From positions 1 through 37,082 of the forward strand of contig CAJWGB010000026.1 of NCBI GenBank assembly GCA_913031625.1: a DNA stretch of 37,082 bases, read 5' to 3'. The stretch is from an uncultured Planctomycetaceae bacterium. Lineage in GTDB: Bacteria > Planctomycetota > Planctomycetia > Planctomycetales > Planctomycetaceae. The notes below the pieces were generated by a model that was not told the DNA's origin, did no database searches, and was given only the letters and a program-made list of their open reading frames with translations. Positions 16,106-30,730 of this stretch are shown here, in pieces. Numbering within the stretch: the first letter of the stretch is position 1; each line of letters opens with the position of its first letter. Made by a program: the position numbers and the translations under genes.

Positions 16106-17160
16106 TGATGATTCTGAAGAAACACTGGTTCCTTGTCGGACTGCTCATCCTGATCCCACTCGGGATTCTGCTGGGCAGGAACGACCCGCCCGAGTGGCTG
16201 CCAGGCCTGGTCAGGAGCGTTCCAACGTCGATCTGCACCGGTGCGATCCTGTTCCTGATGTCGGTAACTCTGGACAGTGGACGGCTGTTTCAGTCTCTCC
16301 GGAAGCCGCTGCCCGTGCTCCTGGCGTGTGGAGTGAATCAGCTCTGCATTCCGTTGCTGTGTTTACCACTCTTATTTCTGCAGGCGAGCCCCGATCTTCG
16401 GGTGGGCCTGCTGATTTCTGCCAGTGTTCCCTGCACGATGGCTGCGGCCTCAGTGTGGACGCGCCGCGCGGGCGGCAATGATGCCGTTTCGCTCCTCGTG
16501 ACCCTGCTCACCAATGGCCTGTGCTTTGTGGTGACACCATTGTGGATGAGTGTCGGCACCGAGTGGTTTGGGACATCTGATGCTTCCAGGGGACTTGGTT
16601 TTGTTCCCATGATGCAGCGGTTGGTTCTGACAGCGCTGTTGCCGGCGTTGGCGGGGCAGCTGTTGCGGCTTGCTCCAAAGCCAAAGGACGTCGTTGATCG
16701 CAATAAGCCAAAGTTCAGCATGATGGCTCAAAGCATCATTTTGTTTCTTGTGTTTGTTTCATGTTTCAAAGGAGGCATGGATTTCGCAAAGAACAATCTT
16801 GGTGAAGGTCTGCGTCACACTGAATTTCTGACGGTCTGGGTTTGCTGCATTGGGCTGCACGTTGCCGCAATGGGAATTGTATGGGTGTTGAGCGGTGTAC
16901 TTAAACTCAAAGAATCGGATCGTCGCGCGACTGTGATTGCCGGCAGCCAGAAGACCCTGCCGATCGGTATGCTTGTGTCGCAGGCTACCGGACTGCCGTT
17001 TTCTCTGTTGCCGATGTTGATGTACCATGCATCTCAGTTGTTTATTGATACCTGGGTTGCGGACCGACTGGCAGCTCGGGGGACTCCTGAGACGTCTGCG
17101 CCTGAGACGTCTGCCGCAGATAACGGTGAAGAGCAGCCGGGCGATGCAGATTCGCGCTGA
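16105..17160 (+). CDS. Bile acid:sodium symporter-like transporter (BASS/SBF-like)
   Basis: Integral membrane protein of 351 residues with about nine or ten hydrophobic segments. It resembles SBF-like/BASS transporters, for example SICTGAILFLMSVTLDSGRL, LLISASVPCTMAAASVWTRRAGGNDAVSLLVTLLTN and VIAGSQKTLPIGMLVSQ. Family members move organic anions or other solutes with sodium. The C-terminal tail is hydrophilic with a repeated PETSAPETSA-type stretch. The start codon overlaps the stop of the PSCyt1-WD40 gene by one base (TGATG), so the two are translated together. Why a cytochrome-propeller protein should be coupled to this transporter is not known; a binding or sensing partner is one possibility. 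Confidence 0.83.
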   Translation: MMILKKHWFLVGLLILIPLGILLGRNDPPEWLPGLVRSVPTSICTGAILFLMSVTLDSGRLFQSLRKPLPVLLACGVNQLCIPLLCLPLLFLQASPDLRVGLLISASVPCTMAAASVWTRRAGGNDAVSLLVTLLTNGLCFVVTPLWMSVGTEWFGTSDASRGLGFVPMMQRLVLTALLPALAGQLLRLAPKPKDVVDRNKPKFSMMAQSIILFLVFVSCFKGGMDFAKNNLGEGLRHTEFLTVWVCCIGLHVAAMGIVWVLSGVLKLKESDRRATVIAGSQKTLPIGMLVSQATGLPFSLLPMLMYHASQLFIDTWVADRLAARGTPETSAPETSAADNGEEQPGDADSR

Positions 17161-17518: not shown

Positions 17519-19129
17519 TTAGAGTGCTTCTGCTTCTTCTCGGCTGAGCAGTCCGTCTTTGTTGGTATCCAGCTCCTGGAATGTTTCCCGCGGTCCGAGG
17601 AACTCCCGCCGACTGACGTCACGATCCTGATTACGGTCCATGCGTTTGAACCATTCCGGTCCTTCAAGGTTTGCGAGGCCTGGCAGAACGGCATTGGTGG
17701 TTCCCTGCATGCCCTGATCCTGCATCATTCTTGACGTTCGCAGTTCGGAAAGTTGCCCAAGGCCAATTTCCAGAGCATAAGCTGTCCCCAGTTCCGCTTC
17801 GGTGATTCGTTCGTCATTGTTTATGTCGTACTCCAGGAGACGATCGAATCCTTCGAGGAACTCACGCTGGGTCAGTCTTCGGTCCGTGTTTTCATCGAGC
17901 AGCTTAAAGAAGGTCTTTCCATCCTGCCTGATACTGGCTTCGATCTGGCTTTGAGTGGCGATCGCGTCTCGTTCGAGGAACAGCGCCAGTTCTTCTCGCA
18001 CAAGCATTTCGTCGTTGTTCAGGTCAACGTCAGCAAACTGAGCACGAACGTTTTGCTGTGCAAACTGACTTTGCATCTGCGGAAACTCGTCTTCAGTCAG
18101 GTAGCTGTTCTTGTCTTCGTCATAGACAGAGAACCGTTGCATCAGGAACGAGACGAGAAATGTGCGGGTGTTTTGGCCGCCTCCACGTGCCCGGATTTCA
18201 ATCGGCATGTCGTCAACAATGAGGCGAGCGCGGCCGGTTCTGCCTGGAGTGACCCGGCAGAATCCTTTCGCTGCGTCCGGGATTTTGAATTCAAGGCTGC
18301 CCGTTCGGCGTCTGTCCGGAAGCTCGATGTTCACTTCGAGATGGAAGACGGGATCGACCAACAATCCGGTGAGCGCGTCTGCATTCAATGATTCGGCTGT
18401 GATTGCGGGTTGCCTGACACGCGCCCCAATAATCGTCTGCCCGTCTCCATATCGCTCAAGAATTTGTTGAACGCATCGCTGCACCTCTTCATTGTCGCCC
18501 AGTTGCACGAACGGCAGTCGAGCCACTTCCGGAACGACGGCAGCCTGCTGTGTGCGTGGGTCGCGGTAGGGGAGCAGTTCCGCAGCACTAAAGGTCTGGT
18601 CATCGTCGAGATCGCGGAATCTCATGGAGTGTCTGCCGGACTGCACCTCTTCCCGAGTCACGGCACCGTCGCCGTTGGAATCAATCAGGCCGGCGAGACG
18701 CACCGCCTCTGATGCCTGAACGGCCCCGGCAATGACGTTGACTCCCTGACCGAGCGCTGAGGCAAGCCATTCGGAAAACTTTACCGCGTCTACAGAGTCA
18801 GCTTCATTCTGCCCGGTCGCCAGCCGGAGCAGGTGTTGAGGGCTTCGGGCGCCGGCCTGTCGGATCAACCGGTCCGGTATCAATGAAACCTCATCGAGAC
18901 CAAGCGAGCCATCACGATTACTGTCCGCGCGTTTGGCCATGAACGTGGCGACCCAGAGCCTGTATGGGCGTCGATCGACTGTAATGCGCAGATTTGCGAT
19001 GACCGGGCCTCCGGGAGCCATAATGACGACCGGAGCGCTGTCACCTGAGCGCGATTCTTCCTTCTGTGCCGGTACGTTGCCACAGAGCAACGTGGGTAAC
19101 AGCAGCAAAAGTAATCGGTAGATACTCAT
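17519..19129 (-). CDS. Exported protein with nine EF-hand calcium-binding loops
   Basis: Protein of 536 residues with a signal peptide (about 1-21, LLLLLLPTLLCGNVPAQ). Nine EF-hand-like loops can be read, starting at about residues 69 (DSNRDGSLGLDE), 150 (DSNGDGAVTREE), 173 (DLDDDQTFSAAE), 337 (DEDKNSYLTEDE), 369 (DLNNDEMLVREE), 412 (DENTDRRLTQRE), 435 (DINNDERITEAE), 498 (DRNQDRDVSRRE) and 521 (DTNKDGLLSREE). Loops at 69, 150 and 521 look canonical; several others lack the glycine at position 6. A region without loops (about 190-325) is beta-rich. Calcium binding in the periplasm or at the surface is expected from the motif; the target is unknown. It is transcribed divergently from the TPR/Exb operon. 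Confidence 0.88.
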   Translation of the reverse strand: MSIYRLLLLLLPTLLCGNVPAQKEESRSGDSAPVVIMAPGGPVIANLRITVDRRPYRLWVATFMAKRADSNRDGSLGLDEVSLIPDRLIRQAGARSPQHLLRLATGQNEADSVDAVKFSEWLASALGQGVNVIAGAVQASEAVRLAGLIDSNGDGAVTREEVQSGRHSMRFRDLDDDQTFSAAELLPYRDPRTQQAAVVPEVARLPFVQLGDNEEVQRCVQQILERYGDGQTIIGARVRQPAITAESLNADALTGLLVDPVFHLEVNIELPDRRRTGSLEFKIPDAAKGFCRVTPGRTGRARLIVDDMPIEIRARGGGQNTRTFLVSFLMQRFSVYDEDKNSYLTEDEFPQMQSQFAQQNVRAQFADVDLNNDEMLVREELALFLERDAIATQSQIEASIRQDGKTFFKLLDENTDRRLTQREFLEGFDRLLEYDINNDERITEAELGTAYALEIGLGQLSELRTSRMMQDQGMQGTTNAVLPGLANLEGPEWFKRMDRNQDRDVSRREFLGPRETFQELDTNKDGLLSREEAEAL

Positions 19130-19594: not shown

Positions 19595-22500
19595 ATGATC
19601 ATGCAATTGTCTAATTTCGGAAAACTGCTGATCTGTTCGTGCGTGCTGCTGACTTCCGCAGCTGCCGACGAGCCTGCCTTGAAATTTCTGGAAGGCCTCC
19701 GCCAGCGTCGTTACTTCGATACTGCGCTGGAATACATTGATCAGCTGGAAGGTCGGAGTGACCTTCCCCAGGAAGTGACGAAAGTTCTGGACCTTGAACG
19801 TGGAATTACGCTGCGCGCTCAGGCGACAGCCAGTGCCTACTCAGATGACAAAGAACAGGCTCTCGCAAGGGCCGAGCAGGCACTAAAAAAGTTCGCCACT
19901 GAGAATGCCGACCATCCTCGTGCTGCGTTTGCCAATTTCGAAGTGGGCCAGCTGCTGCTCGAGCGAGCTCGTTCAACCGTCTGGGAGGCTGAGTCACCAG
20001 CTGCTGCGTCGCGAAAGAACGAACTGCTGCAGTCGGCTCGCGGTCTGATTGATCAGGCGAAGGGCATCTACCAGGTCGCTTTTGATCAATACTCTGCACT
20101 GAACGATAAGTATCCGGCATTCATTGATCGCGACGAAGAACCCGATCTGTTTCAGGAGCGCAATCAGGTATTGCTGCGAAAACTGCGGTCTCAGTATCAG
20201 CTGGCGCGATGTACTTATGAGCGCGGCCAGACATTCGAAATGGGCAGCCAGGAGCGGAATGAGACTCTGATTCGTGCGTCGTCTGAATTTGAAAAGATTT
20301 ATCAGGAGAACCGTAGTACGCCTCTTGGTCGTCTGAGCAACCTGATGCGCGGTAAATGTTTTCAGGAACAGGGAGACATTGGGCGAGCTGTCTCGTTTTA
20401 CAATGACGTCAAAGACGACCGATCCAACCAGCCTGCCGTGGTACAGCTGCGAGCATACGCCGTCCAGTTTCGCCTGATCTGTCTTAATCACGAAACGCGA
20501 AATGACTATCAGCTGGTCGTTACGGAAGCAACAGAGTGGCTCGCGGATAACGTTAACAGGCCACTGCTCGGCACCGAACAGGGGATTGGAATCAAGTGGG
20601 AACGTGCCCTGGCATATGAGAAGATGTCAGCCGAGCGTGAGATCGAAGAGAAGGCTCGCAATCAACTGCTTAATGCAGCCTTTGATGATGCCGACCAGGT
20701 ATCACAGGTCGGAGGCCGCTACTACGAACCTGCTCTGGAAATGAAGCGCAGGATCGGTGCCCTGCGAGGCGACCGGTCGAAGGAGCCAACCGATGCGTTG
20801 AGCGCATACGACGCCGCCAAAGCGATTCTGACTTCAGACTATCGTAAGGCTGTCGATGCCCTGAAGACGGCAAAAGACAGCGGAGATCAGACCGCCATCC
20901 AGTCAGCAACGCAAACTCTGAACCTCAACCTCAAGGAGCTTGGCCGACTGCTGCAACTGACCCTGAAGCTGCGGGACAGAGATACCGATCCCAAACTGGT
21001 GGCTTCCGCCCGCAATCTCCTCAGCTTCGTCTACCTCAAACAGAACAAGAACCTCGATGCGGTTATTCTTGCCCGATTCTGTATGGAGAAGGACCGGGCG
21101 GTTAACCCGGAGGCTGCACTTGAGGCCGTTGATATTGCAATGGCTGCAGTTGTGCGTGCTTACAACGAGGCTGGTGAAGACAAAGACTTTGAGATTCAGC
21201 TGATGAAAGAAGTCATGGAGCTGATCATCAGCGACTATGACAAATCCGCCAAAGGAAATGAGGCTCGCTTTCGACTGGCAAAGATCTACGGCGATCTGGG
21301 CGATCCGGAAACATCGGCTGCCACCTATTTGACGGTCGCTCCGGAATACAAACTGTATCCCACCGCACAGATCAAGGCCGGACAGGCATACCTGACCTCA
21401 TGGTACAACGGTCTGATTGCTGCAGGCGGAGAATCCGAAGCTGGCAATCTGACGGAGCTGCGAGACAACGCTGCAAAGTATCTCCGAACCGGATTGAAGC
21501 TGGCTCGAGCTAACCTTGGTGATGGTCGACCGGGGGCTGAAGTCGTGAAGGCGGAGATCTCACTGGCGGACATCAACAATCGTCAGGGGAATTTTCAGGA
21601 GACCATTGCCCGACTGACGGCGGGAGCCGCAAATTCGGTGCTTGCAATTCAGCAGTTACCGGCGGATCAGCGGCCGGCAACAGGTGTTGGCAGCACGGCT
21701 CTGGCCGCACAGACTTATCGCTACATGCTGCGGGCGTACATCGGCACGCAGCAGCTTGAAAAAGCGCTCGAGATTATGACGAGTCTCGAAAATGTGGGTG
21801 AGCAGAATCTGGCCGCTGTTTATACCGAACTCGGCAAACAGCTGGAGTCCGAACTTGAAGGACTTAAAGCTGCCGGAGATACCGAGAAGCTCGATCAGGC
21901 CCGCACCGACTTTGAATCCTTCCTTGACCGTGTCAGGGAACGGGATCAGCTCGATTACAATTCGTTGTTGTGGATTGGCGAGACATACCTCGGACTCGGC
22001 AACGGAGTCCGGGATCAACGCGAAGTGGCCGAGCCGTATTTTGCTCGGGCCGCAGAAGCCTTCCAGCAGATGCTCGACGAAAAACTTGTCGAGAAGCAGT
22101 TTGTCAATGCCATCAAGCTGAGACTGGTGAAGTGCCGCACCGCTCAACGAAAGTATCAGGAAGCCGTTTCGATGGCTCAGGAGATTCTGACTGAATCAGA
22201 GATGCTTCTCGAAGGTCAGTTTGAGGCAGCACACAGCCTGGCTGAATGGGGGGCAGATGCGGGGGGTGAGCCAGACAAACTCCTCGAAGCAATTGGGGGA
22301 ATCAAGGTCGGGGAAAAGCGAGTCATCTGGGGCTATGGGTATCTCGCTCGTCGGCTTGCTCAAACTCGCAATCAGCCCGAATGGGAGCAACTGCGCCCGC
22401 AGTTTCTTGATGCTCGCTACGAGATTGCAAACTCGCGGCTTCGTTACTTCCAGACTGGTGCAGCGGACGGAAAGCAGATGCTGGATACGGCCGCCGGTGA

Positions 22501-23185
22501 ACTGCGACTGTTTGCTTCCCGAACTTCCGATCTTTCTGACGTAGAGTTCGATCGTTTTTCCGGCCTTTACGACACGATTGTCGCTGAATTGGGGATGGGG
22601 AATAACGACAAACACTACACGCTGAAGCGATTTGAGAAAGTTGAAGTGCCTCCTGAGCAGATGGTTGCCAGGACGGAGGAAGAGATTGCGAAAGACAAAG
22701 CCGAAGACCCTGTCCCGACCTATGAGCCTGAGGGGCCGGGGGTGGCCTTCTTTGGCGTTGCCTTGCTGCTCGCCGGCGGGCTTGGGTTTGGCTGCTACAA
22801 GATGATGAGCAAGCCGCCTCAGAGGAAACGGGCTTATTCATCCGATGTTAATGTGAAGGCTGATACTGCGGGTCCACCCGTTTCAATGCCGTCCGGCGAT
22901 GGCGAACCCAGTTTTGAAGGGCTTGATATTGGTCCGCCCCCAGGTCCTCCGGGAACAGCTCCTCAGAAGAGGCGGAAGAAGAAGGGGGCACCGAAGGCTG
23001 GTCCTGGTGGGAAGACACCTGCGAAGAAGAAGCGTCCGATGACGCCTGAGCAAATGGAGCAAGCCAAAGCGCGACGGCGACGTGCAGCAAAAGAAAAGGC
23101 GGCACAGGAACAGGGAGAGGGAGGTCCTCGACCTAAGAAGAAGGCGAGGAAGCGACCGCCTCAGCCACCCGCTGACGAGAAATAA
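19595..23185 (+). CDS. Large exported TPR-repeat protein with C-terminal membrane anchor and basic tail
   Basis: Protein of about 1196 residues. A signal peptide is followed by some 1000 residues of alpha-helical, tetratricopeptide-like repeats, for example FDTALEYIDQLEGR, ARFRLAKIYGDLGDPETSAATYL and KLRLVKCRTAQRKYQEAVSMAQEIL. One membrane segment near 1055-1080 (GVAFFGVALLLAGGLGFGCYKMM) precedes a tail very rich in Lys, Arg, Pro and Gly, which by topology should be cytoplasmic. A TTG at 19577 is in frame, but the ATG at 19595, with GGA just ahead, is the better start. It is the first gene of a run with a second TPR protein, ExbB and two ExbD proteins. A periplasmic scaffold for the Exb motor is inferred; the tail could bind nucleic acid, phospholipid or another acidic partner. 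Confidence 0.85.
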   Translation: MIMQLSNFGKLLICSCVLLTSAAADEPALKFLEGLRQRRYFDTALEYIDQLEGRSDLPQEVTKVLDLERGITLRAQATASAYSDDKEQALARAEQALKKFATENADHPRAAFANFEVGQLLLERARSTVWEAESPAAASRKNELLQSARGLIDQAKGIYQVAFDQYSALNDKYPAFIDRDEEPDLFQERNQVLLRKLRSQYQLARCTYERGQTFEMGSQERNETLIRASSEFEKIYQENRSTPLGRLSNLMRGKCFQEQGDIGRAVSFYNDVKDDRSNQPAVVQLRAYAVQFRLICLNHETRNDYQLVVTEATEWLADNVNRPLLGTEQGIGIKWERALAYEKMSAEREIEEKARNQLLNAAFDDADQVSQVGGRYYEPALEMKRRIGALRGDRSKEPTDALSAYDAAKAILTSDYRKAVDALKTAKDSGDQTAIQSATQTLNLNLKELGRLLQLTLKLRDRDTDPKLVASARNLLSFVYLKQNKNLDAVILARFCMEKDRAVNPEAALEAVDIAMAAVVRAYNEAGEDKDFEIQLMKEVMELIISDYDKSAKGNEARFRLAKIYGDLGDPETSAATYLTVAPEYKLYPTAQIKAGQAYLTSWYNGLIAAGGESEAGNLTELRDNAAKYLRTGLKLARANLGDGRPGAEVVKAEISLADINNRQGNFQETIARLTAGAANSVLAIQQLPADQRPATGVGSTALAAQTYRYMLRAYIGTQQLEKALEIMTSLENVGEQNLAAVYTELGKQLESELEGLKAAGDTEKLDQARTDFESFLDRVRERDQLDYNSLLWIGETYLGLGNGVRDQREVAEPYFARAAEAFQQMLDEKLVEKQFVNAIKLRLVKCRTAQRKYQEAVSMAQEILTESEMLLEGQFEAAHSLAEWGADAGGEPDKLLEAIGGIKVGEKRVIWGYGYLARRLAQTRNQPEWEQLRPQFLDARYEIANSRLRYFQTGAADGKQMLDTAAGELRLFASRTSDLSDVEFDRFSGLYDTIVAELGMGNNDKHYTLKRFEKVEVPPEQMVARTEEEIAKDKAEDPVPTYEPEGPGVAFFGVALLLAGGLGFGCYKMMSKPPQRKRAYSSDVNVKADTAGPPVSMPSGDGEPSFEGLDIGPPPGPPGTAPQKRRKKKGAPKAGPGGKTPAKKKRPMTPEQMEQAKARRRRAAKEKAAQEQGEGGPRPKKKARKRPPQPPADEK

Positions 23186-23211
23186 CACTGTCTATTGTCT
23201 GGATCAATCAG

Positions 23212-24240
23212 ATGAATATGAAACAATCACTTGCTTTGACTCTGATGGCAGCATTTGCTCTGTCCAGCTCGGCAGATGATCTGACGCGCAAGAGTGAGTC
23301 TACCCGAATTCGTGGTGACATTGGCAAGACGGATCTGACTCAGGTGACAATCAAGCGGACAAACGGAGATCTGATCTCCGTTCCCGTGAATGACCTGAAG
23401 ACCATCAATTTTGCAGGAGCACCGACGGAGCTGTTGCAGGGGCAGACCAATGAATTCAGCGGTGCTTCTCAGGCTGCTCTGGAGAAGTATCAGAAGGCTG
23501 TCGGGGGGACCAGCGGCAAGATGAGGAGTGAGTTCGAATTTCTGATCGGACGAGCTCTGGCGACGCTGTCTCAGGTCGATGCGGATAAATCTGTCGAGGC
23601 AAAGTCAGCCCTGCAGAAGTTTCGGTCAGCGAACAAGACCCACTACCGGTACCTTGAGGCGACTCTGCTTCAGGCTGCTGTTCAGGCTGGCATGAATGAA
23701 GCGGACGAAGCCACGACACTGCTTCAGGAAGTCGTTGATGGCCCTGTTGCCGCGTACAAACTGCAGGCAGGTGTCGAGCTTGGCCGACTGCATCTCAAAA
23801 CCGGCGACGCTGGTGCAGCACTGGCGAAATTTAATGAAGTGATTCAACAGAGTTCAGCTCCAGAAGCAGCTGCCACGAAGTTTGCGGGTATGCTCGGCAA
23901 AGCAGCCTGCCTTCAGAGTCAGAGCAACCTCGATCAGGCTGTGGCCACACTCGATGAAGTGATCAAGAGTGCTCCTGACACAGAAACAAAAACTCACGCG
24001 GAAGCATGGCTTCGTAAGGGAGACTGCCTTCGGCTGAAACAGGCATTTAAGCCTGCTCTATACGCATACCTGCATGTCGATGTGCTCTATGAAGGCGAGA
24101 CGGTTCAGCACGCTGAAGCACTCGCTCGACTGGTGGCACTGTGGCAGCAGGCCGGTCACGCTGACCGTTCTGCCAGTACCTCCGCCAAGCTCAAACAAAT
24201 GTATCCCAACAGCCAGTGGGCAAAGAGCCCCGGAGGTTAG
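23212..24240 (+). CDS. Exported TPR-repeat protein
   Basis: Protein of 342 residues with a signal peptide (about 1-22, LALTLMAAFALSSSA). A short N-terminal beta-type segment contains QVTIKRTNGDLISVPVNDLK. Helical TPR-like repeats follow, such as ALEKYQKAVGG, YKLQAGVELGRLHLKTGDAGAALAKFNEVI, LGKAACLQSQSNLDQAVATL and AWLRKGDCLRLKQAFKPALYAYLHVDVLY. The overall plan recalls YbgF/CpoB-like partners of the Tol system, but no specific motif proves it. It lies 26 bp after the large TPR gene and 149 bp before exbB, and is probably in the same operon. Role inferred: periplasmic adaptor of the Exb complex. Confidence 0.84.
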   Translation: MNMKQSLALTLMAAFALSSSADDLTRKSESTRIRGDIGKTDLTQVTIKRTNGDLISVPVNDLKTINFAGAPTELLQGQTNEFSGASQAALEKYQKAVGGTSGKMRSEFEFLIGRALATLSQVDADKSVEAKSALQKFRSANKTHYRYLEATLLQAAVQAGMNEADEATTLLQEVVDGPVAAYKLQAGVELGRLHLKTGDAGAALAKFNEVIQQSSAPEAAATKFAGMLGKAACLQSQSNLDQAVATLDEVIKSAPDTETKTHAEAWLRKGDCLRLKQAFKPALYAYLHVDVLYEGETVQHAEALARLVALWQQAGHADRSASTSAKLKQMYPNSQWAKSPGG

Positions 24241-24331
24241 GCCAATCTTCGGCGACTTTGGTCAAGTCCGTAAGAATGGATGACGCAGACAGGTCGAACA
24301 GCTACATTTCGAACAGCAAACAAACGAACAA

Positions 24332-24361
24332 CATTCTGCTCATTGGGGTATGAACAGAATG
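24332..24361 (+). other. Stem-loop in the leader just upstream of exbB
   Basis: CATTCTG (24332-24338) pairs with CAGAATG (24355-24361). After one mismatch, TCAT pairs with ATGA around the loop TGGGGT. The eleven base pairs lie 28 bases ahead of the exbB start codon. No T-run follows, so it is not a standard terminator. It may be an RNA-processing or stability element inside the operon. Confidence 0.5.
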
Positions 24362-24389
24362 CTCAAATTGGAATTGGAGAAATACCAAC

Positions 24390-25205
24390 ATGCTGACTCT
24401 TCAGGATCAGATTTCACGGCGCCGGACTCCATGGCTGGTGCTGCTGATGGCCGTTGTTTTGACGACTGCCATCATGCCATCGTTTAGTACGTCCGGGCAG
24501 GCAGTTGCTCAGGAGAATGAAGGCGATGGAGCAGAGGAAGAAAAGAAAGAAGAAAGCACGACCGGCACTGCCTCTGAACGGTCATTCCTTGAGTGGATGT
24601 TTGCTGCTCTGGGCTGGTTCTGGATGACCGTCTTTGCTGCCCTTTCGTTCGTGATGGTTGCTTTGATCATGATGAACGTACTTCAGGTGCGTCGGGACGT
24701 TCTGCTGCCAAACGAATTCGTCGAGGAGTTTGAAGGCAAGCTGAACACAAAAGACTTCCAGGGCGCCTACGAGGTTGCGAAGAACGATGACTCGTTCGTT
24801 GCTCGCGTTCTGGCTGCCGGAATGGCTCGTCTTCAACGCGGCTATGCAGAGTCCGTTGAGGGCATGCAGGAAGCCGGAGAAGACGAGAATATGGCACTGG
24901 AGCATCGTCTGAGTTACCTCGCGCTGATCGGAACTGTTGCTCCGATGCTCGGACTGATGGGAACTGTTCAGGGTATGATTAAGTCGTTCGACAAAATCGC
25001 CTCCTCTGCAGTTGCTCCCAAGCCACCTGAGCTCGCGGAAGGTATTTCTACCGCCCTGTTCACCACTCTGATTGGTCTGGGGATCGCCGTACCTGCAATG
25101 GTGTTTTACAGCATCCTGAAGAATCGCATTCAGCGACTGGTGCTGGAGATTGGCATGGTCAGCGAAGGTCTGATGAGCCGATTCTCTGCCGTTAAGCAGA
25201 ACTAG
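24390..25205 (+). CDS. MotA/TolQ/ExbB proton channel family protein
   Basis: Inner-membrane protein of 271 residues that, with ExbD/TolR, converts proton-motive force into movement in the envelope. It has an extra N-terminal extension: a hydrophobic signal-like segment (about 14-40, ending QAVA before QENEGD), then a Glu/Lys-rich linker. Three membrane helices follow at about 71-97, 174-194 and 219-242, the usual ExbB/TolQ core. Core motifs are SYLALIGTVAPMLGLMGTVQGMIKSF and ELAEGISTALFTTLIGLGIAVPAMVFYSILKNRI. The cleavable-looking extension resembles ExbB forms found in other phyla and suggests a periplasmic N-terminus after processing. Hairpins flank the gene on both sides. Symbol withheld because Exb, Tol and gliding-type members cannot be separated here. 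Confidence 0.93.
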   Translation: MLTLQDQISRRRTPWLVLLMAVVLTTAIMPSFSTSGQAVAQENEGDGAEEEKKEESTTGTASERSFLEWMFAALGWFWMTVFAALSFVMVALIMMNVLQVRRDVLLPNEFVEEFEGKLNTKDFQGAYEVAKNDDSFVARVLAAGMARLQRGYAESVEGMQEAGEDENMALEHRLSYLALIGTVAPMLGLMGTVQGMIKSFDKIASSAVAPKPPELAEGISTALFTTLIGLGIAVPAMVFYSILKNRIQRLVLEIGMVSEGLMSRFSAVKQN

Positions 25206-25219
25206 ATTCCGGGGCCTGC

Positions 25220-25240
25220 TCCGGCACCGTCGGTGTCGGA
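25220..25240 (+). other. Strong intercistronic hairpin between exbB and the first exbD
   Basis: TCCGGCACC pairs with GGTGTCGGA around the loop GTC, giving nine base pairs including one G-T wobble. It begins 15 bases after the exbB stop and ends 29 bases before the exbD ATG. The following sequence, ACTGATTTGTG, is not a proper T-run, so partial termination or protection of the exbB message is more likely than full termination. Confidence 0.55.
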
Positions 25241-25269
25241 ACTGATTTGTGCACAACAGGTGTGAATCC

Positions 25270-25743
25270 ATGAAAATCAAGGGTGCAGATTCAACTCCGC
25301 CCGATGTCGACATGACCCCAATGATCGACATCGTGTTTCAGCTGATTGCCTTCTTTATGGTGATCACGAACTTTGAACAGCAACAGGCTGACGAACGGAT
25401 CACTCTTCCCAAAGACCAGCTTGCAAAGCCTCCTGAGGTGAAGCGAGAGAATGTCGTTGTCATCAATCTCGGCTTCGATAAGGCCGACGGGGAGAAGATC
25501 AGCGATGAGCCTCTGATTCTGTTCGGTGGCGAGCAGTTTACAGTCGAAGGCAGCAGGGCAAGGCTTCAGCAGGAAGCTCAGTTCTACGAAGTCATTGACA
25601 CCGCACTGGACGAAGTGACGGTGGAGATTCGAGCTGATGCGGACGTCCCGGCGGGGCTTGTGCAGAGCCTTATCAAGATGTGCCAGGAAGAGGGGATCGG
25701 GTTTACTCGGTTTGCTCTCAAGGCAACACAGCAGATCAATTGA
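25270..25743 (+). CDS. ExbD/TolR family biopolymer transport protein (first copy)
   Basis: Protein of 157 residues with one N-terminal membrane helix and a periplasmic domain. DMTPMIDIVFQLIAFFMV contains the conserved proton-carrying aspartate (Asp20) at the start of the helix (about 19-37). The periplasmic part ends with a TolR-like segment, AGLVQSLIKMCQEEGIGFTRFALKATQ. A GTG at 25249 would add seven residues; I chose the ATG at 25270, since ExbD proteins start shortly before the helix. It lies 21 bp before a second ExbD gene. The two differ in the periplasmic domain, suggesting a hetero-dimer in the ExbB ring. Confidence 0.92.
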   Translation: MKIKGADSTPPDVDMTPMIDIVFQLIAFFMVITNFEQQQADERITLPKDQLAKPPEVKRENVVVINLGFDKADGEKISDEPLILFGGEQFTVEGSRARLQQEAQFYEVIDTALDEVTVEIRADADVPAGLVQSLIKMCQEEGIGFTRFALKATQQIN

Positions 25744-25764
25744 GTAATATTTGTTGAGGCATTA

Positions 25765-26259
25765 ATGAAGATTCGAAGTCGCAGTGCTGACGGCGAGAAG
25801 ATTGAAACACAGATGGCACCCATGATTGACGTGGTGTTCCAGCTGTTGATTTTCTTCATGCTGACGCTCAAGATTATTGAGCCGGAGGGTGACTTCAGCA
25901 TCAGTATGCCACTGGGGCAGACCTCGACTGAGTCGACCGATGACCCACAGATTGAGCCCTTGAAGATCCGACTTCGTGCTTCTGCTGATGGAGCACTGGC
26001 GGAAGTACTGGTGAATGGTGAGACAATGGGAGTCGGTCCTGCAGCTTTCCAGCGAGTCAATACCAAGGTCTTTGACGAGATTGTTGGGCTGGGGGACAAC
26101 GCTGATGATCTGGAGGTCGAGATCGATCCCGATTACGGAGTTCCTTACAGCGGGATCATTGCCACGATTAGTGCCTGCTCCGGGCGGATTGAGAACAAAG
26201 AGGTCACTCGATTTGTCAGTAAAATCAAGTTTGCGCCGATCCGTGAGGAAGCGCCTTAG
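25765..26259 (+). CDS. ExbD/TolR family biopolymer transport protein (second copy)
   Basis: Protein of 164 residues. QMAPMIDVVFQLLIFFMLTLK carries the conserved aspartate (Asp22) at the start of the single membrane helix. The periplasmic part (ALAEVLVNGETMGVG, DDLEVEIDPDYGVPYSGIIATISACSGRIENKEVTRFVSKIKFAP) has the ExbD/TolR fold pattern with a longer linker than the first copy. Paired ExbD genes after one ExbB gene are common in planctomycetes and other phyla. No TonB or TolA gene is nearby. The next gene, a redoxin-like protein, follows after 103 bp. Confidence 0.92.
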   Translation: MKIRSRSADGEKIETQMAPMIDVVFQLLIFFMLTLKIIEPEGDFSISMPLGQTSTESTDDPQIEPLKIRLRASADGALAEVLVNGETMGVGPAAFQRVNTKVFDEIVGLGDNADDLEVEIDPDYGVPYSGIIATISACSGRIENKEVTRFVSKIKFAPIREEAP

Positions 26260-26362
26260 CTGCTCCCTTGTTTGAAGAGCGAACAGGCGTCGAATGGGAG
26301 AGTGGAGTCAGTGGTCCCCCTGACCCTGCCTGAAGCAGTTAAAGTCGAATTTAAGTATCGTT

Positions 26363-26962
26363 ATGGCTGCTCAATCACGGAGGTTTGTTGTATTTCTGGC
26401 CGCGGCGGCAGTCGTTCTGGTAGCCGCTGCTGTCTGGCGCTCAGCTAACCCCCGCCCTGATTCATGGGATCCGTCCGCTCCGCAGACTCTGGAACTCCGG
26501 CAGTTCGCTCCTGCCTTTGAACTTTACGATCAGGGTAGTGGAGAGAAGAAGCCGCGGCTCGTGAATCTGAGGTCCTACCTGCATCGCCATCAGATCGTAT
26601 TGGTTTTCTTCAACGGAAACCCGGAGAGTGACTCCACTTTGTGGTCGCTGAGAGAACGGCACGAGGATCTTGAGGCAGAGAACATCAAAGTCTTTGGTGT
26701 CACGACTCAGTTGCCACAGGTGAATCGTAAGACGAATGAGCCGTTTCCGTTTCCGCTCCTGTCTGATGTCGAGTCGATGAGTCCGGATTCGGCACATAAA
26801 ATGTGGGGGCGTCTTAGACCTTCCGACGCACCGGGTGGCGGCCCCGAGACGATTCCGGGAGTCTTCCTCATCGACCGCGCGGGCACTGTGGCATGGGAAG
26901 ACAAGTTGCCCAGGCCCCTGGGCGACGACGTGGATCTGATTGAGCGGCTGCTTGGTTCGTAA
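26363..26962 (+). CDS. Membrane-anchored AhpC/TSA (redoxin)-like protein lacking all cysteines
   Basis: Protein of 199 residues with an N-terminal membrane anchor (about 9-26, VVFLAAAAVVLVAAAVW) and a periplasmic thioredoxin-fold domain. The peroxiredoxin-like pattern is FAPAFELYDQ, VNLRSYLHRHQIVLVFFNGNPESDSTLWSLRERHEDLEAENIKVFGVTT, then FPFPLLSDVES and IPGVFLIDRAGTVAW. Where the catalytic cysteine of this family would stand, the sequence reads GNPESDST, and there is no cysteine anywhere in the protein. It therefore cannot do cysteine-based peroxidase or thiol exchange chemistry; a binding or structural role is inferred. It follows the second exbD gene by 103 bp and has a weak ribosome site, so operon membership is probable rather than certain. 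Confidence 0.75.
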   Translation: MAAQSRRFVVFLAAAAVVLVAAAVWRSANPRPDSWDPSAPQTLELRQFAPAFELYDQGSGEKKPRLVNLRSYLHRHQIVLVFFNGNPESDSTLWSLRERHEDLEAENIKVFGVTTQLPQVNRKTNEPFPFPLLSDVESMSPDSAHKMWGRLRPSDAPGGGPETIPGVFLIDRAGTVAWEDKLPRPLGDDVDLIERLLGS

Positions 26963-27287: not shown

Positions 27288-30200
27288 CTAATGATTGGTG
27301 ATGAACTCCTGCGTGTTCACCAATGCCCACAGCAGGTCTCGCAGGCCGTCCGCAAATGATTCCTGGTTGGCAAAGTGTTGTTGGCACCGAGTTAATTCTT
27401 CGACAGTTGGTATTCGGGAAACCGTTCGAAGGTAGGCCTGTTCAATCCATGGCCTAAGGTCTTTGGGCGGTGATTTGAGACCCTTAACTTCACTCACCCA
27501 GCCATCTGCCCGGTCGAGCATCTGGAGAAGTTCTTCGTCATTTCGGATGTACAGCGCCTGTGGCAGGGCGGGCGATTCTGCGCGTTCGCAGTCACAGTTT
27601 ACGCTGCGCAGTGGCTTGCCAAAGACAAGCAGGGAATAGTCGATGGAACGAGTCTGGTAGGAACGCGGCTGCTGGTTGATTTTTCTGGATTCGACATCGC
27701 GGCCAATGAATCGCAGCCGTTTGGTGTTTGCTGTGGACTGCAGGATTGCATCCACGACTGTCTCGGCCGGTAGTCTTCGGATTTCGGCATGGCTGTGATG
27801 TGTATGATCATGAAGCCCGGATGGCGTGGCTTTCCATGACAGCTGGTAGGTGCGTGATTGGATTATTGTGCGGTGCAGCCATTTCATGTCGTAGTTGTGC
27901 TTCACGAATGAGGACGTCAGGTACTCCAGTAGCGGTGCGTTTGATGGAGGGTTCGCCAGGTTGAGATCGTCGGTGGGAGCGACGATTCCCTTGCCGAAGT
28001 ACACGGACCAGATGCGATTCACGAATGCTCGTGCCATGGAACGATGTGGCTCTTCGATCAGCCACTGAGCCAGCAGCAGGGTTGGGTCCTGGACATCGTT
28101 TAGATCAATCTCTGCTCCACCGGGAAATCTTGCCAGCTGCGGGCTGTTGCCGGGGGGCTTGATGTAGATTTCATTCCACGGGATCGCGCGGCCCTCTGCT
28201 GCGATTCTCAGGTAGCTCTGGCGGCGCAGTGCGGCAGTGTTCAGCTTTCCCGGGACGCCCAGCAGTTCACGATAACGTTGATTCCGAGGCATGGCATCCG
28301 GAGCAAGGCCACGGCCGATTCTTGTAAAGAACTGTGTGAACTGTTCAAAGTCGTGTTGCGACCACTGGTCAAACGGATGTTTGTGGCATTGAGCACAGTC
28401 GAGCCGTGTGCCCATAAAGATGTAACCGAATGAAAGGGCTTTGTCTGATGGGACTGTGATGTTGTCTCGATACCAGTAGTGCGGCATGGGGTTGCCCAGT
28501 GCGGAGAATTCGGCATCGCGTTTGCCCCGCTTCGTGAAGCCGCTCTGCCGTGCGATGTAGTCGCGGTAGGACTCAGTGTCCGGGCGTGACTTTGACGTGA
28601 TGATGCCCTCAACGATTTTGTGCCAGCCAATATTCTTCTCGACTCGGTGCTGCATCCAGTCACGCCATTGAGCGGCAACCACGGAGGCCATTTCCGTACT
28701 GCCAAGGTATCCCGCGTTGCTGCCTGTCAGGTCGCACAGCCTTGTCGTCCACCAGCGAACGTAGGCTGGGTGTTCAAGCAGGTCGTCGATCAATTGTTGT
28801 CGCTTGTCCTCGCTGGAATCGTCAACGAACTGACGGATCTGATCCGGCGTGGGAAGCGTTCCAATGAGGTCCAGTGATGCTCTGCGAAGGAACTCAGAGT
28901 CTGTGCAGAGGTCCGTGGGGACAACTCCCAGCTGTTGCAGTCGGCGATTGACCAGCCGATCAATTTCCGTAGGGGCCGGGATATCCGGAAATGCGGCACC
29001 TGATTGCTCGGAAACGGGACGGATGACGGGAACCGGGACCACGCCGTTATCGTAGTAGACCACGATATGAGTGGCGCCGGGGCGAATGCTGGTCACTCTG
29101 CCCTCCTCTGTAACACTCGCGAGTGCGTCATCGAGCGGCTCAAATCGTGCCAGGCTTGTTACGTCTTCTCGAAGACCATTTGACCAGACACTCACGACTT
29201 TCAGTTGGGCCGTCTGATTGTCGCTGTGGAATTCAATTTCGGACGGGCTGATTTCCAGCCGAACGAATGTGGGCGCAGACTCCGGCAGGCCGTTTGCTCC
29301 CCCTTTGATCCACCGAATAAGAGTTGCCTGCTGCCATGAGCCCTTAGCAAACCGCAGGCCCCCTTCGTGTTCTTTCTCAGAGGTTGGCTTGTTCACAATG
29401 AGACTCTGCCGGGGCTGCTGCAGGTTTACTCGGTCGCGCAACGCAGTGTGATCCGCCGAGAAGTCGTAGCCGAACATCGACAGCCGAAATCCACCGCGTC
29501 CCTGAAACGAGCCATGGCACGAACGTCCGTTGCATCCCAGCCGGCCGAGCAGCGGTATGACGTGTCGCTGAAAGTCCGGAGTAAAATCCTGTTCCAGTCG
29601 TGTTCGGACATCCGGTAGAACCGATTTGACGGCAGCTGTGGCATTTTGTTTCGCGAACAGAGCGATGCTCTCGCGGTCGCCGGCACCAGTGGCCTGGAAA
29701 AAGATCTGTGTGTCCGGTAACGCCTGCTGAAGGGCCTTTAACGCATCCGGTGTCAGGCCGCAGTGATAGACCTCAAGCACCTTCAGCTGTTTCAGCTGCG
29801 TAAGGGCTTTTACTCCTTCGGCTGTCAGTTTGTTGCCGGAAATCGAGAGGTGCGTAAGTGACTCGAGGCTGACGAGTGCGTCCAGGCCGACGCCCGTGAT
29901 TCCCGTTTCGTTGAGTGAAAGTGTTTGCAGTTTCTGGAGTGACGTCAGTGCAATCAGCCCGTCGTCTGTCACCAGAGTCTCGTCGAGAAACAGGCACTCC
30001 AGATTGATGAGCCGTGCCACGCTGCAAACTGTCTGGTCGCCGACTTTGGTTTCCTCGAGTGAAAGCACCTGCAAAGCGGAGAGGTGTTCGAGTGAGCCGC
30101 CCGCCGAGTCATCGATCGGGGTAGCTGCGAGTGAGAGGTGAGTCAGTCCCCGCATGTGCTCAAGTGCGTTCAGGGCGGCTGATGAGATGCGAGTCTCTGA

Positions 30201-30491
30201 AACAAAGAGTGTCTTCAGTTTCTTCAGCGAGGCCACATGATGAAAGCCAACATCACTGACCTGCGGGGCAACGACTGCCAGGTACTCAAGATGCGGATAC
30301 TCAGGCAGTTGTTCGAGTGTGGCATCTGTCACAACTGGCTTACTCAATCGAATCAACCCGACGGTTCCATCCTTGTTGTACTGGAGATTCGTGACTTGTC
30401 GCCGAAACTCGAGCGGTACTTCCGTCTTTGGATTTTGTGCCACAACCGAAGAAATTGCCGACAGTATGAGCAGCAGCAGAAGGTGTCTCAT
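27288..30491 (-). CDS. LRR-PSCyt1-like/Big_2/DUF1549 (PSCyt2)/DUF1553 (PSD1) fusion protein
   Basis: Exported protein of 1067 residues. Signal peptide at the start (MRHLLLLLILSAISSVVAQ). About nine leucine-rich repeats of roughly 24 residues run from about 45 to 265 (LTHLSLAATPIDD, LQVLSLEETKVGD, LECLFLDETLVTDDGL). The remainder parallels the protein at 7201-9924: DFQRHVIPLLGRLGCNGRSCH with a C-x4-C-H motif (Cys320-His326), a Big_2 segment, DUF1549 with CAQCHKHPFDQW, and DUF1553 ending LVNTQEFITNH. The GTG at 30512 is possible, but the ATG at 30491 has GGAG seven bases ahead and shares ATGA with the stop of an upstream small gene, so I chose it. Unlike the first copy it has no DUF1501 neighbour. 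The LRR part may supply a binding face. Confidence 0.9.
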   Translation of the reverse strand: MRHLLLLLILSAISSVVAQNPKTEVPLEFRRQVTNLQYNKDGTVGLIRLSKPVVTDATLEQLPEYPHLEYLAVVAPQVSDVGFHHVASLKKLKTLFVSETRISSAALNALEHMRGLTHLSLAATPIDDSAGGSLEHLSALQVLSLEETKVGDQTVCSVARLINLECLFLDETLVTDDGLIALTSLQKLQTLSLNETGITGVGLDALVSLESLTHLSISGNKLTAEGVKALTQLKQLKVLEVYHCGLTPDALKALQQALPDTQIFFQATGAGDRESIALFAKQNATAAVKSVLPDVRTRLEQDFTPDFQRHVIPLLGRLGCNGRSCHGSFQGRGGFRLSMFGYDFSADHTALRDRVNLQQPRQSLIVNKPTSEKEHEGGLRFAKGSWQQATLIRWIKGGANGLPESAPTFVRLEISPSEIEFHSDNQTAQLKVVSVWSNGLREDVTSLARFEPLDDALASVTEEGRVTSIRPGATHIVVYYDNGVVPVPVIRPVSEQSGAAFPDIPAPTEIDRLVNRRLQQLGVVPTDLCTDSEFLRRASLDLIGTLPTPDQIRQFVDDSSEDKRQQLIDDLLEHPAYVRWWTTRLCDLTGSNAGYLGSTEMASVVAAQWRDWMQHRVEKNIGWHKIVEGIITSKSRPDTESYRDYIARQSGFTKRGKRDAEFSALGNPMPHYWYRDNITVPSDKALSFGYIFMGTRLDCAQCHKHPFDQWSQHDFEQFTQFFTRIGRGLAPDAMPRNQRYRELLGVPGKLNTAALRRQSYLRIAAEGRAIPWNEIYIKPPGNSPQLARFPGGAEIDLNDVQDPTLLLAQWLIEEPHRSMARAFVNRIWSVYFGKGIVAPTDDLNLANPPSNAPLLEYLTSSFVKHNYDMKWLHRTIIQSRTYQLSWKATPSGLHDHTHHSHAEIRRLPAETVVDAILQSTANTKRLRFIGRDVESRKINQQPRSYQTRSIDYSLLVFGKPLRSVNCDCERAESPALPQALYIRNDEELLQMLDRADGWVSEVKGLKSPPKDLRPWIEQAYLRTVSRIPTVEELTRCQQHFANQESFADGLRDLLWALVNTQEFITNH

Positions 30492-30730
30492 TGGGTTTCT
30501 CCGGGCTTGCACGCTGCATCTGCGTCAACATCAAAGGACGTCTCCATCTTCGATACGTGACGGGCATCATACTGCTGTATCCGGCCTCGGTCGAACTCCA
30601 GACTGGCAAGTGTGGTCGTCGCGTGGCACGGGCCTGCGTCGCTTAACCGAAGACCCGCCGGGGCCTGTTCGAAGCTTCTGCTGTAAGTGCGTCGAACAAA
30701 CTGGATCCAAAGTTGTTCCACGTCATTCAT
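30488..30730 (-). CDS. Small hypothetical protein translationally coupled to the LRR-PSD1 gene
   Basis: An 80-residue frame whose TGA overlaps the ATG of the LRR-PSD1 gene as ATGA, a classic sign of coupled translation. The product starts MNDVEQLWIQFVRR and has a middle part LRLSDAGPCHATTTLASLEFDRGRIQQYDARHV. It shows no signal peptide or membrane segment and matches no family I know. The frame is open further back to a GTG at 30832, which would give 114 residues; GAGG precedes the ATG at 30730 but is very close to it, so the start is uncertain. The overlap is the main support that this is real. Confidence 0.45.
   Translation of the reverse strand: MNDVEQLWIQFVRRTYSRSFEQAPAGLRLSDAGPCHATTTLASLEFDRGRIQQYDARHVSKMETSFDVDADAACKPGETQ

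Follow-up and report, generated by a model that had tools for sequence, protein, structure and literature searches.

A planctomycete TPR-ExbB-ExbD-ExbD locus as the putative proton-motor half of an envelope machine built around a secretin

A five-gene cassette in an uncultured Planctomycetaceae bacterium, encoding two exported TPR proteins, one ExbB and two ExbDs, probably makes up the proton-motor half of an envelope machine centred on a secretin, a reading to which we assign a probability of about 0.58. In other planctomycete classes, the cassette forms the downstream end of a longer PilM-to-secretin operon, and this position names the likely partner. From this linkage, we infer a single complex, its force path and its function.

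Gene products of the cassette

The window (the whole stretch of DNA analysed, 37,082 nucleotides) had been predicted to carry six co-directional ORFs. All six are present, which confirms the ORF set, and five of them (TPR_L, TPR_S, ExbB, ExbD and ExbD) make up the conserved unit. The features of the locus are as follows.

19595-26962, + strand: whole locus, six co-directional ORFs
19595..23185, + strand: TPR_L (TPR1), exported 1196-aa repeat solenoid; ATG at 19595, the ORF opening at TTG 19577
22733..22795, + strand: C-terminal membrane helix of TPR_L, from hydrophobicity and the AlphaFold model
22796..23182, + strand: basic Pro/Lys/Ala-rich tail of TPR_L, from composition; mostly disordered in the AlphaFold model
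23212..24240, + strand: TPR_S (TPR2), exported 342-aa protein with an N-terminal beta domain (model) and TPRs (TPR_6 over cut-off)
24390..25205, + strand: motor subunit of the ExbB/TolQ type, extended at the N-terminus by an export-like segment; PF01618 E 1.2e-28 and alignment
25270..25743, + strand: ExbD1; ATG at 25270, the ORF opening at GTG 25249; PF02472 E 1.2e-19
25765..26259, + strand: ExbD2; PF02472 E 2.8e-14

The PF01618 and PF02472 domains of ExbB, ExbD1 and ExbD2 all lie above the Pfam cut-offs and, together with the conserved order in relatives, bear out the original prediction of a complete ExbB/ExbD-type motor beside two TPR genes. Compared with PDB sequences at E<=0.001, the ExbB profile matched TolQ and ExbB chains only. 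The Thr motifs of ExbB are present in the window, and the conserved aspartate expected in both ExbD helices is seen as P-M-I-D near the N-terminal helix of ExbD1 and ExbD2. Among 53 cassettes found in Planctomycetia, the window's class (L153 and recognised repeats removed; the class assignment of L113-L152 rests on gene order, plus the ExbB clade for those in the tree), both Thr motifs recur in 53/53 and two ExbDs in all, with P-x-h-D in 50/53 first and 45/53 second ExbDs; eight of the 11 misses are S/A-M-I-D variants and three are unclear in the segment shown. Cassettes of other classes carry the ExbD motif in 29/29 first and 22/29 second ExbDs, and the two ExbB motifs in 26/30 and 23/30.

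No TonB/TolA C-terminal domain, TolB or Pal scored over cut-off among the six locus proteins; the motor proteins gave TolQ/TolR/ExbB/ExbD matches, and the YbgF/CpoB matches of the TPR proteins were all below cut-off. The claimed lack of TonB, TolA and TolB holds for the locus; elsewhere in the genome, contig C91 encodes a TonB with its own, separate ExbB-ExbD pair (TonB_C E 7.3e-13).

TPR_L agrees with its description as an exported TPR protein of about 1200 residues with a membrane anchor and basic tail. One hydrophobic segment is N-terminal and a second, near residue 1047, precedes the K/R/P/A-rich tail. In the AlphaFold model (mean pLDDT 83), residues from about 26 to 996 form an almost all-helical repeat solenoid, followed by a helix at 1048-1068 and the tail, with pLDDT mostly <50 and a short helix at 1149-1171. 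Because Pfam scores are all under the cut-offs (best 1.7e-3), the repeat nature of TPR_L rests on this model. The tail, with 33 K/R versus 13 D/E in the window, is predicted to lie on the cytoplasmic side from the export signal and the single helix. TPR_L matches were found in 35/39 genomes searched, own genome included.

TPR_S is modelled (mean pLDDT 94) as a small five-stranded beta domain joined to a helical repeat array. Its best natural solved-structure match is CpoB (6g5s, E 1.8e-12), outranked by three designed TPR proteins, and structure searches with the TPR models returned only generic repeat matches; the PilF pilotin 2ho1 and chain 9hmf_K are among them and carry no weight as homology. 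The TPR_S profile (A5) matched 149/149 phylum genomes at E<=0.001, of which the weak ones may be generic TPRs. Very strong scores in G120, G080, G138, G053 and G117, considered as a bridge, were dropped because the profile contains L153, L155 and L159; L159 lies in G120 and L155 in G117.

A PilM-secretin operon in other planctomycete classes

In other classes than Planctomycetia, the operon starts with PilM and two single-helix membrane proteins, continues with a secretin that bears TPRs and then with TPR_L, TPR_S, ExbB, ExbD and ExbD, and often ends with a second secretin. An upstream secretin was found in 16 of the 23 other-class cassettes with room upstream, or 15/22 without L205, which has <6.5 kb upstream. 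Pfam identified the secretin in 7/7 candidates of a first set and 10/10 of a second, one of these ten, the L204 downstream gene, scoring below cut-off (24.1 versus 27.5 bits). The PilM ahead of the secretin matched PF11104 (E 6e-27 to 1e-32) in three of four proteins tested; the remaining one, a fragment truncated at the edge of locus L153, gave no Pfam match and matched the PilM profile at 2.5e-22. Between PilM and secretin, one N-terminal hydrophobic helix is present in 14/14 examined proteins, and six proteins scanned there gave no PilN/PilO Pfam match, with fn3 in two. In the gene drawings, whose ORFs were partly scanned, no left-over gene for an ATPase or pilin was apparent from PilM through the final ExbD.

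Matches to PilM, to some secretin and to TPR_S are near-universal in the genomes searched, where the counts also take in PilMs and secretins of other kinds and generic TPRs, and linkage, not co-occurrence, was therefore used as the test. In a sample of 149 phylum genomes chosen regardless of TPR_L, a TPR_S match lies 7-17 kb downstream of PilM in 29 of the 59 other-class genomes with both listed. Same-strand linkage within 20 kb was thus observed 29 times versus about 0.2 expected by chance, a count biased by the TPR_S profile, which includes the three loci named above, and by the PilM profile A7, built partly from linked loci. Within this distance, no arrangement other than TPR_S downstream on the same strand was found. 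The other 30/59 genomes, many of them fragmented drafts, showed no linkage. Eighteen of the 29 linked loci were read (L331 and L335 being the contigs of L159 and L155, respectively), and PilM is separated from the TPR genes by a secretin in 18/18, while ExbB follows TPR_S in 14/18; ExbB is missing from this position in L342 and L343, and in G170, one of the 29, the TPR_S match falls inside a TPR_L-sized ORF. The gene drawings, for which the longest ORFs were picked greedily, hide some genes, of which we recovered PilM in L344, ExbB and ExbD in L339, TPR_S in L336 and the second membrane-protein gene in L311, L321 and L325.

The recurrence of the same row of genes in distant planctomycetes suggests a motor-driven channel. 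In a literature search that left subscription papers mostly uncovered, no title or abstract was found describing PilM or a secretin with TPR-ExbB-ExbD-ExbD in Planctomycetota.

Separate loci in Planctomycetia and alternative readings

Within Planctomycetia, most of the Planctomycetaceae loci read preserve the five-gene order, as do some loci outside that family. As it is kept in many relatives, the order is not due to chance. The expected adjacency of the TPR genes to exbB/exbD is borne out in the window's own family, where 16/20 loci (L039-L058) carry the full set of five, and falls short in other Planctomycetia families, where 8/13 loci lack an ExbB beside their TPR genes (L061, L063-L067, L069 and L071; L068 is cut). 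Same-family loci of the latter kind are L055, L057, L233 and L234, and L058 is a lone TPR_L fragment. In the ExbB tree, 23 Planctomycetia cassette ExbBs fall on one side of a branch (100/100), and those of other classes make up a grade and do not join the window's ExbB in a clade.

An upstream secretin was found in 0/44 Planctomycetia cassettes, a list from which L153, an other-lineage locus and the one with a secretin, was removed (1/45 before removal) and in which L111, L112 and L118 repeat L041, L043 and L046. This would fit a stand-alone TolQR-like envelope motor, in which ExbB/ExbD, an anchored TPR_L and a CpoB-like TPR_S act on the cell wall or outer membrane in growth or division and the secretin link of other classes reflects shared history only. 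The CpoB match of TPR_S and the membrane anchor that TPR_L possesses in the window's family point the same way. However, the TPR matches are generic, PilM and secretin are joined to the cassette by operon linkage in other classes, and Planctomycetia retain both, so that we consider such a motor unlikely.

Neither the secretin nor PilM stands beside the cassette in Planctomycetia. Each was matched in 39/39 Planctomycetia genomes searched, and loci chosen from these matches contained the long cassette type of PilM in 13/13 and of secretin in 20/20. The long Planctomycetia PilM belongs to the same clade as the operon PilM, apart from short pilus PilMs (SH-aLRT 100). Two further large ORFs follow PilM in 12 of the 13 long-PilM loci read, and the secretin is next in four of the 13. 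In the window's genome, both lie outside the window itself: PilM and two neighbours are on contig C11, and the secretin is cut at two contig ends, C135 and C37.

It is less probable still that the locus is one of the PVC TPR-tolQ-tolR-tolR-vWA force-transducer clusters described in 2025, its transducer gene having been lost or moved. Three Lentisphaerota/Kiritimatiellota loci (L166, L169 and L186) do combine the five-gene order with one large gene, but these downstream genes have no vWA match and hit squalene-cyclase-like models (E 5.4e-5, 5.9e-3 and 3.4e-6, respectively, only L186 being just over cut-off). Nor did the window proteins scanned, which leave out the gene at 27288-30512 after the redoxin, yield a vWA match, and the recurrent neighbour in Planctomycetota outside the window's class is a secretin.

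The sixth ORF of the window encodes, as predicted, a cysteine-free redoxin-like protein (AhpC-TSA E 3.3e-10). Its homologs lie away from the cassette in 6/7 other same-genus genomes, and the redoxin was rejected as a subunit because it is not linked to the cassette in relatives. The membrane helix of TPR_L reaches threshold in 22/23 full-length family f1 proteins, the 23rd (L039) scoring 1.52 at the corresponding segment, and in 0/37 of the 'other classes' list, which holds two same-family second copies (L222 and L223); orthology of TPR_L between classes rests in part on position and size. Helix and basic tail are thus mostly limited to the window's family, and the tail therefore cannot be the core function. 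A six-gene complex that includes the redoxin and binds nucleic acid or lipid through its cytoplasmic tail accords with the strongly basic composition of the tail but is highly improbable, given the unlinked redoxin and the mostly family-specific tail. As a whole, the original prediction is partly supported.

Proposed machine and comparison with known systems

For the most novel version of the secretin-centred reading, the odds appear about even: an ExbBD-type motor would act via two periplasmic TPR proteins to drive a PilM-held, TPR-bearing lipoprotein secretin, together an undescribed trans-envelope machine. In the preferred reading, the five genes would supply a Planctomycetota-wide machine with its motor in the inner membrane and its TPR scaffold in the periplasm, ExbB and the two ExbDs assembling into a proton-driven 5:2-type motor whose movement the TPR proteins may pass through the periplasm to the lipoprotein secretin, which would receive it with its own N-terminal TPRs. 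The PilM-like actin-fold protein and the two single-helix proteins would keep the secretin in place from the inside, like PilM/PilN/PilO of type IV pili. Powered by proton flow, with no ATPase, the motor could open, remodel or work the secretin pore or move substrate through it. In Planctomycetia, the operon would have been split into separate loci, with the motor part in the window.

The well-known secretin machines of type II secretion, type III secretion and type IV pili are powered by ATPases. If the proposal is true, planctomycetes would possess a secretin nanomachine that runs on proton flow, not ATP, and that may power their large-molecule traffic or their surface pores. An ExbBD motor in a PilM-secretin operon of many planctomycete families would be a new power source for an outer-membrane channel, and it offers a concrete gene set for testing how large molecules move through the planctomycete envelope.

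The putative machine resembles a type IV pilus alignment complex combined with an ExbBD motor. It shares with TolQR/ExbBD motors the fold families, the ExbD helix Asp and the ExbB Thr motifs, but the window locus has two different ExbDs, exported TPR partners and no TonB/TolA. With PilMNOPQ, it has in common PilM (PF11104), two single-helix proteins and a secretin, both in other classes and in the four Planctomycetia loci; unlike PilMNOPQ, the other-class platform is followed by TPR_L-TPR_S-ExbB-ExbD-ExbD, and its PilM is a long protein with a clade to itself, with no PilN/PilO Pfam match among the proteins scanned. Foldseek listed chain 9hmf_K of the Campylobacter flagellar periplasmic scaffold, presumably in the PflA/PflB role, for both TPR models; this is generic repeat similarity (TMt 0.29 and 0.20), and no homology is claimed.

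The PVC vWA clusters likewise place a TPR gene before one tolQ-like and two tolR-like genes, and section 8 of the paper on them makes no mention of the secretin or PilM that are the recurrent extras in other planctomycete classes (PMC12204202). Compared by description, the locus differs in having two TPR genes and no vWA match. The AglRQS-Glt gliding motor of Myxococcus similarly combines one TolQ-like with two ExbD/TolR-like proteins and has GltD (1191 aa) and GltE among its exported TPR proteins, a likeness by description; its TPR genes, in contrast, lie in clusters apart from the motor genes (PMC3169522). The PocAB-TonB3 complex of Pseudomonas aeruginosa differs in including a TonB, and it is not known to have large TPR partners or a comparable operon position. 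This ExbBD-TonB-like complex, a precedent for ExbBD-type action on PilMNOPQ, is needed for the expression or polar placement of type IV pili, and the authors of the study suggest that TonB3 contacts the N0 domain of PilQ (PMC5285504).

The cassette and its conservation

The six same-strand open reading frames of the original prediction are present at 19595-26962; with one divergently transcribed neighbour they are:

17519-19129, minus strand, EF-hand protein
19595-23185, plus strand, TPR_L, only sub-threshold Pfam TPR matches (best 1.7e-3)
23212-24240, plus strand, TPR_S, Pfam TPR models
24390-25205, plus strand, ExbB, Pfam MotA_ExbB (E 1.2e-28)
25270-25743, plus strand, first ExbD, Pfam ExbD (E 1.2e-19)
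25765-26259, plus strand, second ExbD, Pfam ExbD (E 2.8e-14)
26363-26962, plus strand, redoxin-like protein, Pfam AhpC-TSA (E 3.3e-10)

The AlphaFold model of TPR_L is a helical repeat solenoid leading into one membrane helix and a basic, mostly disordered tail, and that of TPR_S (mean pLDDT 94) places helical repeats after a small beta domain. Those named relatives whose ExbBs are closest are recorded as Planctomycetaceae, a Fuerstiella MAG among them, and the search of relatives matched TPR_L in 35 of 39 genomes, the window's own included. The predicted retention of the TPR genes beside exbB/exbD holds within the family, where all five genes stand in order in 16 of 20 loci (L039-L058); the exceptions are two TPR pairs without an adjoining ExbB (L055, L057), a lone TPR_L fragment (L058) and a locus that runs off its contig (L052). 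Later same-family loci either carry all five genes (L235, L236) or lack ExbB (L233, L234). Retention fails more often in other Planctomycetia families, where 8 of 13 loci have the TPR genes without ExbB, three keep the five genes (L059, L060, L062), L070 has four with TPR_S missing, and L068 is cut. The five genes are also visible on many named contigs.

Of 53 Planctomycetia cassettes, counted with recognised repeats taken out, every one has two ExbDs and an ExbB with the Thr motifs. A branch with 100/100 support in the ExbB tree parts the 23 Planctomycetia cassette proteins from all others, the seven further ExbBs of the window's genome among them. Flanking genes are mostly not common to different genera. 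The redoxin, proposed as a sixth member, does not belong to the unit: of seven further genomes from the genus, six have a homologue, in every case away from the cassette. An EF-hand homologue adjoins the cassette in six same-genus loci read (a cluster of seven with the window). Across 49 Planctomycetia cassettes the median intergenic gaps, in cassette order, are 63, 191, 52 and 33 bases; the widest, between TPR_S and ExbB, marks the loosest joint, so the cassette may be read as two transcripts.

The TPR_L membrane helix and basic tail are largely a family trait: in the window's family 22 of 23 full-length proteins exceed the threshold, and the 23rd (L039) reaches 1.52 in the same segment. Other Planctomycetia families give 1 of 12 proteins (L070, whose segment does not resemble a membrane helix). 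Among named loci 10 of 29 pass, three of these being repeats of loci from the family, and none of the 37 listed under other classes does, a list that in fact includes two second copies from the window's family.

Secretin and PilM beside the cassette in other classes

Outside Planctomycetia, a secretin gene often precedes the cassette. TPR and ExbD neighbours flank 25 of 27 ExbB loci from other classes. Of these, 23 were taken to have room upstream, and a secretin gene stands upstream in 16 (15 of 22 if L205, whose upstream stretch is below 6.5 kb, is dropped); six have a downstream secretin as well. Named contigs beyond Planctomycetia, a list that includes paralogous systems and other phyla, show the upstream gene in 4 of 10 with room (L153, L155, L159, L163). 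Pfam assigns the Secretin family to every candidate in two sets (7 of 7 and 10 of 10), with one member of the second set below the family cut-off. Most candidates tested have N-terminal TPR matches, and 18 upstream secretins, once aligned, share an almost invariant lipobox-like Cys. In several lineages a second, downstream secretin ends the operon, as in L153, L159, L198, L207, L210, L331, L334 and L341.

Upstream of the secretin lies a gene for PilM (PF11104 in three of four proteins tested; the fourth, a piece at the edge of L153, has no Pfam match). Two proteins, each with one N-terminal membrane helix, are encoded between PilM and secretin, and neither gave a PilN or PilO Pfam match. Linkage was assessed by comparing PilM profile matches on 149 phylum genomes with TPR_S matches on the same genomes. 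Both were listed in 59 other-class genomes; in 29 of these a TPR_S match follows PilM, on its strand and no more than 20 kb downstream, against about 0.2 expected by chance for 4-Mb genomes, with profiles that both include sequences from joined loci and may favour linked copies. The distances are 6.8-16.9 kb, and in one linked genome (G170) the TPR_S match falls in a TPR_L-sized reading frame. Linkage is absent in the other 30, and no other PilM/TPR_S arrangement within 20 kb occurs in the 59. Secretin lies between PilM and the TPR genes in all 18 linked loci read, two of them (L331, L335) on contigs already represented by L159 and L155. ExbB follows the TPR genes in 14 and is not there in L342 and L343; L336 and L344 reach the end of their contigs first.

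Three Lentisphaerota/Kiritimatiellota loci (L166, L169, L186) share the five-gene order, with a further gene downstream for a large protein that matches squalene-cyclase-like models and has, by eye, one N-terminal hydrophobic helix; a His in that helix of L166 is reminiscent of TonB/TolA.

The corresponding genes in Planctomycetia

In Planctomycetia the long secretin of the joined-operon type is located away from the cassette. The secretin profile matched somewhere in 39 of 39 genomes, as did PilM, and a reading frame of 1310-2180 aa matching the secretin profile was present in all 20 loci fetched from good matches. Thirteen long-PilM loci were read: two more large reading frames directly follow PilM in 12, the thirteenth (L317) ending too early to show them, and secretin comes next in four (L311-L314). 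An SH-aLRT of 100 sets the long PilMs apart from five short ones of pilus type, in a tree made by a quick method and with several long branches. The window's draft genome (444 contigs, 6.7 Mb) holds PilM and its two neighbours on contig C11, with the secretin split between C135 (16942 bases long), where the N-terminal part ends at base 16800, and C37 (33101 bases long), where the C-terminal part reaches base 33100; the parts are thus present, unlinked to the window's cassette.

The lack of TonB, TolA and TolB that the original prediction noted is borne out in the locus; elsewhere in the genome a separate ExbB-ExbD-TonB set (L078; TonB_C E 7.3e-13) lies on C91. The same genome has a second TPR-motor locus (L076, C1:75000-92000) encoding a 2576-aa TPR-like protein, ExbB, two ExbD-like proteins, a DUF4159 protein and a 549-aa TPR protein. 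ExbB/MotA-like genes also occur beside a 1089-aa TPR protein (L077, C67), among neighbours without a Pfam match (L079, C98) and among neighbours with marginal matches only (L080, C40).

Proposed working and relation to known systems

Proton drive is established for TolQR/ExbBD, and the ExbB and ExbD residues imply a putative motor of this kind. The TPR proteins would most likely pass force on or keep the motor in place, since they look exported and their genes lie between the secretin and motor genes in joined operons. The secretin's own TPRs should face the periplasm and could offer a natural docking point. Pore opening, uptake, export or assembly are candidate functions. Planctomycetes have been reported to bear crateriform outer-membrane structures, which bind sugar moieties during feeding on dextran (PMC11131199); a tie between these and the secretin-motor machine is speculation.

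The cassette belongs with the ExbBD/TolQR-type motors, and its locus lacks what would place it in the Tol-Pal or TonB systems. Literature searches turned up no title or abstract describing the joined operon. The nearest published cluster is the TPR-tolQ-tolR-tolR-vWA set of the PVC group, in whose account section 8 leaves secretin and PilM unmentioned (PMC12204202). Because PilN and PilO were not found, we do not claim membership among type IV pili; the gene order of PilM and the two bitopic proteins is that of the inner half of the pilus alignment complex. In PocAB-TonB3, action of an ExbBD-type complex on such an apparatus has a precedent (PMC5285504).
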